From a virus: 45,548 nucleotides of DNA. The stretch covers positions 1 to 45,548 of IMG/VR virus record IMGVR_UViG_3300036900_000123; one strand, written 5' to 3'. The translations under genes and the position numbers were made by a program. The notes under the pieces are model-generated. The model saw only the letters and a list, made by a program, of their open reading frames with translations, did no database searches and was not told where the DNA came from. Positions 2,831 through 6,196 of the stretch are shown piece after piece; position 1 is the first letter of the stretch, and every line of letters begins with the position of its first letter.

Positions 2831-3132
2831 CCACGACGGAAAGGATTCTGGCGGCGCTGTGCAGACCTATTTCGCTCAGCTATGTCGCGTGTGAGCTGCA
2901 TGTTTCGCTCTCGACGGTACGATCCGTTCGAGACAAGCACCGCAGCGTCATCGTCAACGCGAGGCTCAAAGCGGGACAGCACATAGACGGCGTTTGTTAT
3001 CACTTAGATTTACTCACGCATCTTGACTCAATGCGGGAGTGGCACCAGCGAGTCATAGCACTTCAACAAGCACAGGAACAGGAGCAAGCACATGCATTTC
3101 AGCCAGCGGTGGAGAACGAGCGCCAAGATTAA
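2770..3132 (+). CDS. HTH-containing hypothetical protein
   Basis: This 120-aa product has a helix-turn-helix at about residues 24-58 (TERILAALCRPISLSYVACE, then a turn and LSTVRSVRDKH), like a winged-helix or MarR-type recognition unit. The C-terminal third is Gln/Glu-rich. The only early in-frame start is TTG 2770, which overlaps the previous gene by 61 bp, so the true start may lie later. It may be an early DNA-binding protein. Confidence 0.6.
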   Translation: MAEPVEPRPGISALARQPELATTERILAALCRPISLSYVACELHVSLSTVRSVRDKHRSVIVNARLKAGQHIDGVCYHLDLLTHLDSMREWHQRVIALQQAQEQEQAHAFQPAVENERQD

Positions 3133-3559
3133 AGGGCGCCGTCAGCCGTGTTTGCTTTACCAGCAATGGGCGAACATGAAGTACCGCTGCACTCGCCCAA
3201 GTCATGTCAGCTACGCCCGCTATGGCGGTCGCGGTATCTCGATTTGCAGAGAGTGGATGTCATATCCGCCTTACAGGCAATGGGCAATAGCTAACGGATA
3301 CCGGCGCGGACTGACCATTGACAGAATCAACAATGACGGCAACTACGAACCAGCCAATTGCCGTTGGGCCTCTCGAATGGAGCAGGCTGCCAACAAAGGG
3401 AACAATGTTTTTCTAGAACACAAAGGAGAAAGACTGCACCTACGTGCATGGGGAAGGAAGCTAGGCGTTTCCTACACCGCGATCTACAAGAAGCTCTGTA
3501 GAGGAATGAGCGTCGATCAAACACTCAGTTTCTATCAATCACTTAAACAAACTCGTTGA
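3092..3559 (+). CDS. HNH/AP2-like homing-type DNA-binding protein
   Basis: This 155-aa product has YARYGGRGISICREW followed by LTIDRINNDGNYEPANCRWA, the hallmark of a phage family often labelled HNH or AP2-domain protein. A C-terminal recognition helix (LRAWGRKLGVSYTAIYKKL) resembles the DNA-binding modules of homing endonucleases. A full set of HNH catalytic histidines is not obvious, so nuclease activity is uncertain. It overlaps the ends of both neighbours and may be a mobile insertion in the operon. Confidence 0.7.
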   Translation: MHFSQRWRTSAKIKGRRQPCLLYQQWANMKYRCTRPSHVSYARYGGRGISICREWMSYPPYRQWAIANGYRRGLTIDRINNDGNYEPANCRWASRMEQAANKGNNVFLEHKGERLHLRAWGRKLGVSYTAIYKKLCRGMSVDQTLSFYQSLKQTR

Positions 3560-4035
3560 AGGATACAAACATGCCACGCATAGACGATATGATACCGAGC
3601 AAGACGAACTTCATGCGCAAAGAGGACGTTGGCGACGCCGGCAAGGATCTCGCCATCAGCCACTTCGACTATCAGGAAGTAGGCCAGGGCGAGGACAAAG
3701 AGACGAAGCTCGTCGTTCATTGGACCGACAAGAACTACAAGCCCATGGTCGTGAACAAAGAGAACGGCTCGCGACTGAAGATGGCTTTGAAGACCGACGA
3801 CAGCGAGCAAATGATCGGCCGCGTCGTGAACGTCTACAGCGATCCCTATGTGGCTTTTGGCGGCAAGACTGTCGGGGGCTTGCGCATCCGGCCGGCGAAG
3901 TCTGCGCCGATCTCGGCTCAGACCCGCTCGGCGCTGAATCCGCCGCGTGCTCCCGCTCGTGAGCCGGGCGAGGACGACGGTCCGCCCACACCCCCGGCCG
4001 AGGCGTACGACAACGATCCGCCTTGGAAGGACTAG
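3556..4035 (+). CDS. Single-stranded-DNA-binding-like early protein
   Basis: This 159-aa product has a beta-rich N-terminal two-thirds with FGGKTVGGLRIRPA near residues 96-109. It ends in a Pro-rich linker and an acidic tip, DNDPPWKD, which recalls the acidic C-terminal tail of SSB proteins. The exonuclease gene follows directly after one base, which is a typical recombination-module order. The SSB role is inferred from tail and context. The fold cannot be confirmed here. Confidence 0.6.
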   Translation: MKDTNMPRIDDMIPSKTNFMRKEDVGDAGKDLAISHFDYQEVGQGEDKETKLVVHWTDKNYKPMVVNKENGSRLKMALKTDDSEQMIGRVVNVYSDPYVAFGGKTVGGLRIRPAKSAPISAQTRSALNPPRAPAREPGEDDGPPTPPAEAYDNDPPWKD

Positions 4036-4938: not shown

Positions 4939-5125
4939 AGATAAACGAGAATGGGACAAGCTCAAACGACTAATAAATCAGCATACAAAAGCCGCAATCG
5001 CAGATTCATGGAAAGGAAATAATGAATTGAAGTCTTATTCGGAAATTGAAAGACGCTATGAAATAGCTAGTAAGAAGTTAGCTGAGCATATCGATTTTTT
5101 GAAAAATCAATGTGAAACATCTTGA
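4931..5125 (+). CDS. Small AT-rich helical protein
   Basis: This 64-aa product is rich in Lys, Glu and Ile (REWDKLKRLINQHTKAAIAD) and predicted to be helical. The gene is clearly more AT-rich than its neighbours, with codons such as aaa, tta and aat, a sign of recent acquisition together with the start of the following methyltransferase. It overlaps that gene by 14 bp. Function is unknown. Confidence 0.6.
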   Translation: MTKDKREWDKLKRLINQHTKAAIADSWKGNNELKSYSEIERRYEIASKKLAEHIDFLKNQCETS

Positions 5126-5720
5126 TATATTTAGTGGAATCGGCGGGTTCGCAATTGCCGCCAAACGAGTCGGATGGGAAACCATCGGCTTTTGCGAGAC
5201 CAACCATTTTTGCCTCAACGTCTTGGAGAGACGGTTTGGTCGTGTCCGCCGGTTTTCCTTGCCAGGATCTCTCGATAGCCGGGAAGCAGCAGGGCTTATC
5301 GGGTTCGAACAGCTCGTTAGCGTTGAGGCTGATTGGATTGTTATCGAGAATGTATTTCACACCTGGCGGCGATGGATGCCCGAACTGCGGCGCCGCCTGT
5401 ACGAGCGAGGGTACGCCAGCCTGCCGCTTCGAGTGTCAGCCGCAGACGTTGGGGCGGTCCATGAGCGAGCCAGAGGGTGGCTGGTTGCCCACGCCGACAG
5501 CGAGCAGCTACGGGAGCTGTCGCGGTGGTGGGGCCGGGAGGGTGGGCAAGTGGCGAAAGAGCTTGCAGAGTCTTGGAGTGCTTCACCCAGACGACTGGGA
5601 ACAGATGATGGGGTTCCCGACTGGGTGGACAGACGTCGCACATTGGGTAACGCCATTGTGCCCGCGTGCGCAGAGGTCATATTTAGAGGAATCGCCGCTG
5701 TCCACAGACCTCGGGAATGA
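5112..5720 (+). CDS. C5 cytosine DNA methyltransferase, frame A (motifs I, VI, VIII-like, X)
   Basis: From GTG 5112, 202 aa. Residues 4-22 (LDIFSGIGGFAIAAKRVGW) are motif I, the SAM-binding loop. WIVIENV (75-81) is motif VI. SAADVGAVHERARGWLVAHA (109-128) matches the motif VIII area, and TLGNAIVP (177-184) is motif X. The catalytic motif IV (PCQ) is missing in this frame and appears instead in the +1 frame of the same DNA (5122-5769). About 20 residues expected between motifs I and IV are also absent. This is either a two-polypeptide enzyme with overlapping genes or a gene with compensating indels. Confidence 0.65.
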   Translation: MKHLDIFSGIGGFAIAAKRVGWETIGFCETNHFCLNVLERRFGRVRRFSLPGSLDSREAAGLIGFEQLVSVEADWIVIENVFHTWRRWMPELRRRLYERGYASLPLRVSAADVGAVHERARGWLVAHADSEQLRELSRWWGREGGQVAKELAESWSASPRRLGTDDGVPDWVDRRRTLGNAIVPACAEVIFRGIAAVHRPRE

Positions 5721-5769
5721 ATGGGATCTTTGGGTGCGAGAGCGACAGGATGGCTATGAGCCGCTTTGA
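5122..5769 (+). CDS. C5 cytosine DNA methyltransferase, overlapping frame B (PCQ motif)
   Basis: A frame open for 215 codons (TTG 5122, later GTG/TTG possible) nearly entirely inside the previous gene. It carries VSAGFPCQDLSIAGKQQGLSG (residues 41-61), the motif IV loop with catalytic Cys. It also carries LPTPTASSYGS (122-132) and HPDDWEQMMGFPTGWTDV (155-172), typical of the target-recognition and C-terminal part of phage Dcm-like enzymes. None of these is in frame A. Whether it is translated separately, reached by frameshifting, or left over from decay cannot be told from sequence alone. Confidence 0.5.
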   Translation: MIYLVESAGSQLPPNESDGKPSAFARPTIFASTSWRDGLVVSAGFPCQDLSIAGKQQGLSGSNSSLALRLIGLLSRMYFTPGGDGCPNCGAACTSEGTPACRFECQPQTLGRSMSEPEGGWLPTPTASSYGSCRGGGAGRVGKWRKSLQSLGVLHPDDWEQMMGFPTGWTDVAHWVTPLCPRAQRSYLEESPLSTDLGNEWDLWVRERQDGYEPL

Positions 5770-6196
5770 GTTCACCGTCAGCTCCATCGAGGACTTAGTG
5801 CCTGCGTTTAAGTGGGCGAGCGAGCTCCTACGCATGGGCTTACCCGGTGGACCGATGGCGCTGTATGTGGACCGGCCGAGACGTAGCAAGGAGCAGAACG
5901 ACCGTTACTGGGCTGCTCTAGCAGACATCTCGAAACAGGTTGAGTGGAACGGCGTGAAGTTGACCAAGGAGGACTGGCGGGATTTGTTTACGGCTGCGAT
6001 CAGAAAGCAGCGGCTGGTTCCGGGTCTCGACGGTGGGCTGGTGGTGATTGGCGGACACTCGAGCCGAATGAATCGCGAGGAGTTCTCGGAGATGATTGAG
6101 CTTGTCTATTCCGTGGGAACAGAAAAAGGCGTCGTTTGGAGTGAGCCTGCAGAGAAGGAACTACTCGCGGCTCATGTTGAGAAGATTAGAGCTTAG
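5717..6196 (+). CDS. ninB: NinB-like recombination protein
   Basis: This is a 159-aa protein if read from ATG 5717; ATG 5750 or 5756 after gacagg is equally plausible and trims 11-13 residues. RSKEQNDRYWAALADISKQV, then LTKEDWRDLF, GLDGGLVVIG and SRMNREEFSEMIELVY are the conserved stretches of lambda NinB (Orf), a mediator that acts with ssDNA-binding proteins in phage recombination. It stands downstream of the SSB-like and exonuclease genes, completing a recombination module. Confidence 0.88.
   Translation: MNGIFGCESDRMAMSRFEFTVSSIEDLVPAFKWASELLRMGLPGGPMALYVDRPRRSKEQNDRYWAALADISKQVEWNGVKLTKEDWRDLFTAAIRKQRLVPGLDGGLVVIGGHSSRMNREEFSEMIELVYSVGTEKGVVWSEPAEKELLAAHVEKIRA

Follow-up and report, generated by a model that had tools for sequence, protein, structure and literature searches.

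The overlapping reading frames on the plus strand of the window (the whole stretch of DNA that was analysed, an IMG/VR virus record of 45.5 kb) are best read as one predicted DNA cytosine-C5 methyltransferase made as two polypeptides from about 600 bp, a reading to which we give a probability of roughly four in five. Protein A would provide the S-adenosylmethionine (SAM)-binding part with motifs I-III, the strands beta-5 to beta-7 and motifs VI, VIII and X, and the nested protein B would provide the beta-4 strand, the catalytic PCQ loop and the alpha-D helix, followed by the end of the target recognition domain (TRD) and motif IX. As neither A nor B holds a full active site, assembly would have to occur in trans, with the beta-4/PCQ segment of B completing the central sheet of A. 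It is likely, though slightly less so, that the active site is built from the two overlapping-frame proteins in the order A-B-A-B-A with the nucleophile strand and loop on the nested one, that this partition can be dealt anew within the clade (as in contig L003) and that overlapping frames can thereby pack and reshuffle one fold. We infer that B is translated from its own start, assembles with A and takes part in catalysis and, from the partition of the motifs, that both polypeptides would be needed for activity; the role of such a stand-alone phage gene is probably to shield the phage DNA from host restriction.

Distribution of the C5 motifs over two frames

The C5 motifs I, IV, VI, VIII, IX and X follow each other in order along the DNA across the two frames (Table 1), in the window as in its nearest relatives (10/10 contigs). 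The initial annotation had assigned motifs I, VI, VIII and X to one frame and GFPCQDLS together with MGFPTGWT to the other; all of these were located, and the MGFPTGWT block is motif IX. Frame A contains neither motif IV nor TRD/IX, which are found, with the catalytic cysteine and a cysteine cluster, in frame B.

Table 1. Features of the overlapping frames in the window
Feature	Position	Strand	Remarks
Frame A open reading frame (alpha-like)	5112..5720	+	GTG start, 202 aa; motifs I, VI, VIII, X
Frame B (beta-like, +1 of A)	open 5116..5769	+	stop 5767-5769; listed from TTG 5122
Motif I FSGIGGF (SAM binding)	5130..5150	+	frame A
TTG, candidate B start	5155..5157	+	frame B; aligns with the post-GGAGG TTG of six relatives
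Motif IV AGFPCQDLS (catalytic Cys)	5248..5274	+	frame B; homologous to the M.HhaI Cys81 segment
Motif VI VIENV	5340..5354	+	frame A
Cys cluster GCPNCGAACTSEGTPACRFEC	5374..5436	+	frame B; mostly conserved
Motif VIII VGAVHERAR	5448..5474	+	frame A
TRD-end block PTPTASSYGSCRGGGAGRVG	5488..5547	+	frame B; same DNA reads AHADSEQLRELSRWWG in frame A
Motif IX MGFPTGWT	5608..5631	+	frame B
Motif X LGNAI	5643..5657	+	frame A

Each frame exceeds the gathering score of the Pfam DNA_methylase model (PF00145) with a different part of the model, frame A at positions 1-45 and frame B at positions 65-97, and PHROG methyltransferase families match both frames. Likewise, the profiles built from the two frames cover complementary parts of C5 enzymes of solved structure. 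The A profile aligns to 3g7u at 5-63, 108-171 and 339-367, the regions of motifs I-III, VI-VIII and X (whole-sequence E 1.3e-9, the two later pieces being weak alone), and skips motif IV and TRD/IX, and the B profile aligns to M.HhaI at 74-107, which includes Cys81, and at 252-292, which is motif IX and weak alone. Modelled with AF2, A adopts a methyltransferase fold (pLDDT 72.7) with C5 methyltransferases as the best PDB matches (TM about 0.46), M.HhaI on top; for B by itself no fold is predicted (pLDDT 34.5), which tells little on its own. The cysteine pattern CPxCGAxC...CxFxC is largely kept at the same site in relatives including the ordinary sister enzyme of contig L137, and may possibly constitute a metal site in the nested subunit.

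The locus is flanked upstream by a PD-(D/E)XK exonuclease and downstream by a NinB/Orf recombination mediator; an HNH endonuclease is encoded farther upstream at 3092-3559, and none of the neighbouring genes examined was recognised as a restriction enzyme partner. The stop of frame A and the start codon of the NinB-like open reading frame (5717-6196) overlap in an ATGA (5717-5720), which suggests translational coupling of the two.

Conservation and selection in the relatives

IMG/VR was scanned with either frame as well as with alignments to gather the relatives that share the partition of the window (type 1). With the window, these relatives amount to ten independent contigs, the nine others being L002, L129 (=L007), L132 (=L008), L133 (=L009), L130, L136, L134, L135 and L131. 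All members are IMG/VR viral contigs, nearly all of metagenomic origin, and no type-1 copy was found in cultured phages, plasmids or 84,980 species genomes at the sensitivities used; when phage records were searched at the DNA level with the window, a single short match emerged, to Rhizobium phage X2_25 with an ordinary 448-aa enzyme. At 49-67% identity to the window in frame A and 55-69% in the core of frame B, motifs IV and IX are in B and motif X is in A in 10/10 contigs. The spacing is shared as well: counted from the start of the motif IV match, motif VI is found at +92 nt, VIII at +200, IX at +360 and X at +395, with L002 (VI at +95) being 3 nt longer throughout. In L131, SPCQ replaces GFPCQ at motif IV, as read by eye.

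Two further contigs, L054 (1242 region) and L139 (3019-3204), have motif I shifted by 1-2 nt, into the +1 frame as seen from motif IV, which may reflect sequencing error, a plain frameshift or more repartitioning, and are left out of the type-1 count. Contig L134 carries two C5 methyltransferases in tandem (2238-2996, then 2989-3663), the first being an EcoHK31I-like alpha whose +1 frame encodes TRD/IX and the second, directly after it, the type-1 pair.

The shared core is free of stops in both frames in all ten contigs, and the third frame holds 6-9 stops per copy in the eight gap-free copies. Frame B ends after motif IX, with a stop that in L134 falls within the compared stretch, and in L131 a frame-B stop at the extreme start precedes every possible B start. 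Selection acts on both frames. When codons were redrawn with the A protein held fixed, 0 stops were observed in B versus 15.7 expected in the eight gap-free contigs, the fewest in any of 1000 synonymous redraws of A being 5, and B identity was 0.70 versus an expected 0.33; in the reverse redraw with B fixed, A identity over TRD/IX was 67% versus 44%. The long double opening is thus more than chance, given the open core of nine other contigs and 0 B stops where about 16 were expected.

The constraint on the two frames alternates along the DNA as A-B-A+B-A-B-A. Over IV/alpha-D, dN/dS is 0.23 for B and 1.66 for A; over VI and the Cys cluster both frames are constrained (A 0.44, B 0.53); over motif VIII A is at 0.42; and over TRD/IX B is strongly (0.22) and A moderately (0.69) constrained. 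The most variable codon position flips in step with dN/dS, being the third position of A over motifs I-III and X and the third position of B over IV and TRD/IX. Redraw and dN/dS tests assume near-saturation at free sites, with which the singly coded stretches agree (third-position difference about 0.5), and with sequences that are related and not independent the probabilities from the selection tests are indicative. Conservation of both frames in relatives, proposed at the outset as a check, is hence found with selection on each, and the predicted split enzyme with its catalytic cysteine in a nested second frame gains support from this as well as from the conserved partition.

The main alternative named by the initial annotation was decay through two compensating deletions. 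In that case an ordinary methyltransferase would have been broken by two indels, and the second frame would be open by chance. The deletions are real (38 and 28 nt compared with L137). The decay is hardly credible, as the same partition and spacing with a core stop-free in both frames are fixed in ten diverged contigs and dN/dS stays under 1 for A and B alike along most of the overlap; decay or assembly error as the origin of the layout was ruled out by the ten independent contigs.

Another reading takes both proteins to be made and conserved without forming a methyltransferase, for example as DNA or SAM binders or as an anti-restriction decoy. How extreme the split of the catalytic core is, and the inactivity of a comparable engineered split, would speak for such a function, but all ten contigs retain motif I, PCQ, EN(V/T/S), the TRD/IX block and the GN of motif X, and we regard it as distinctly unlikely.

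Predicted translation of the two chains

Each frame is open where its own residues are unconstrained: across the motif IV segment frame A has 0 stops versus 7.8 expected, although A residues are free there, and across motifs I-III frame B has 0 stops versus 10.4 expected, although B residues are free there. This argues for two proteins, each translated straight through, and against ribosomal frameshifting. Furthermore, in copies that keep the motif III region (the window and L002 are without 27 nt there) A motif III (GDVRAL) shares its nucleotides with B beta-4 (TFVLCGGF), and A beta-5 (TWIVIEN) shares its nucleotides with B alpha-D, so that parts of the fold would be missing from a frameshifted chain.

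A double programmed frameshift from A to B and back to A, which would yield one alpha chain with motif IV beside a separate TRD/IX beta, has the attraction that its product would be an EcoHK31I-like alpha, and no direct support for it was found in this analysis. Under this model A would have no need to be open across the motif IV segment, no slippery sequence common to the contigs was seen at the junction before motif IV, and in the fused chain motif III and PCQ would be separated by about 8 residues, compared with about 19 in L137, and most of alpha-D would be lost; such a mechanism is very unlikely. A single frameshift from A to B before motif IV would produce a chain with I-III, IV, TRD and IX to be paired with plain A. 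The B residues upstream of beta-4 are unconstrained and several contigs are without a start codon immediately before beta-4, as this model would have it, but the stop-free upstream B stretch, the presence in most contigs of upstream B starts with Shine-Dalgarno-like sequences and the spacing between III and IV, again too short, make it distinctly unlikely.

For two straight-through chains, start sites of B can be proposed in most contigs. In L130, L134 and L135, which form a supported clade, the B start is exactly 4 nt past the A start (TTGAATG, ATGGGTG and GTGAATG) and a purine run resembling a Shine-Dalgarno sequence precedes it. Six of the seven remaining type-1 contigs have a TTG 8 nt past a GGAGG that is made by the glycine codons of motif I, and in L129 this TTG is the sole possible B start. 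GGAGG plus a start at the motif I site occurs in 11/103 other methyltransferases (Fisher p about 4e-5 for 6/7, uncorrected for kinship and subset choice, and about 7e-4 for 6 of all ten). The window reads GGCGG, not GGAGG, before its TTG, the role of which as B start is uncertain, and its B start candidates are at 5122, 5134, 5155, 5236 and 5242. A general conserved internal start just before beta-4 was considered and rejected, as it is absent in L129, L130, L136 and L131.

Ancestry and comparison with known two-polypeptide enzymes

In a tree of the VI-X region the ten type-1 copies and L003 form one clade (support 99/97), with L137 and L138 as the nearest rows. In L137, the closest outgroup, motifs I, IV, VI, VIII and X are all in one frame and the +1 frame encodes a homologous protein GCPSCG...PTPTASSYGSCRGGG...MMGFPIGWT, a layout also seen in L138, L234, L235, L244, L245 and L247. 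A single intact frame with all motifs, which the initial annotation had held against a split enzyme if present in relatives, is thus not a feature of the close ones, the nearest outgroups having TRD/IX in +1; it appears only in more distant enzymes such as the single-chain 409-aa enzyme of L238.

Compared with L137, the 38 nt that most type-1 copies are without lie between I and IV and the 28 nt between IV and VI, the two summing to a multiple of three, and in the window and L002 the further 27 nt are missing between I and IV. These alignments indicate that the type-1 clade derives from an EcoHK31I-like layout via two deletions, one on either side of motif IV. In the ancestor, translation of the +1 protein probably ran through the motif IV region already, so that the two deletions would have shifted the catalytic loop from the alpha frame into the nested beta frame. 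In L003 (2087-2877, =L081), inside the clade, I-III are in frame with TRD/IX and IV is in frame with VI-X; taken with the type-1 partition, this places I and IV in different frames in every clade member.

If the active site does arise from one 600-bp stretch translated in two different frames, this would represent extreme compaction of overlapping genes and complementation of a fold, and a catalytic residue could change subunit via a pair of indels where translation of the partner frame already exists. Of two overlapping frames, standard gene callers as a rule retain one. As each frame alone, in addition, resembles a broken enzyme, such pairs may be missed or called pseudogenes.

The nearest homologous systems are phage alpha/beta pairs. 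In Paenibacillus phage Lily (L248), gp62 (801-1565) is a DNA-cytosine methyltransferase and gp63 (985-1476), named 'g62 internal gene', lies in its +1 frame and starts 184 nt into the gp62 gene, upstream of motif IV. Annotated as a hypothetical protein in a cultured phage, gp63 looks like an unrecognised beta subunit. Lily, L137, L138, L244 and L245 share with type 1 a homologous alpha and a TRD/IX protein (PTPTAS...MGFP) in the +1 frame, but their alpha holds I, IV, VI, VIII and X and their +1 frame is without PCQ. The enzyme of L238 has the same PTPTASSYGS-TRD and EWMMG motif IX blocks, there between VIII and X; unlike in type 1, everything is in one frame, without overlap.

To our knowledge, natural two-polypeptide C5 methyltransferases carry the SAM motif and the catalytic loop on the same chain. 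In the searchable literature, which leaves most subscription papers outside, PCQ or the nucleophile has not been reported on a nested chain of a natural C5 enzyme. M.AquI is, like the present locus, a natural two-polypeptide C5 enzyme, but its alpha and beta are split inside the variable region with I-VIII together on the large subunit (PMC3404938), whereas I and IV are on different frames here. On the other hand, fragments [1-61], which bears motif I, and [62-395] of engineered M.MpeI complement each other (PMC5944983), and motif I and motif IV can therefore sit on separate chains. These fragments are artificial and, unlike A and B, come from non-overlapping genes; the engineered split nearest to A/B, [192-61]+[62-191], which isolates residues 62-191, failed to complement and was inactive (PMC5944983).

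Finally, the present pair finds its closest parallel in organisation in M.EcoHK31I, the precedent on which the initial annotation had based its split enzyme. The beta polypeptide of that enzyme is encoded in another frame of the alpha gene. The likeness is one of layout, sequence relatedness being shown only to the phage alpha/beta pairs (Lily, L137): in both cases there are two polypeptides with the second nested in an alternative frame, and motif IX is on the small and I, VIII and X are on the large subunit. In M.EcoHK31I (YGGCCR), motifs I-VIII, motif X and the predicted TRD all lie on alpha, and beta contributes motif IX only (PMC3404938). In the present pair it is instead the nested frame that carries the TRD end and motif IV with its catalytic cysteine. 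The A/B pair would thus work like an EcoHK31I enzyme but departs from one defining feature, motif IV on alpha, and is best regarded as a predicted C5 methyltransferase of two polypeptides in which the nested one carries the nucleophile, an arrangement new within the EcoHK31I kind.
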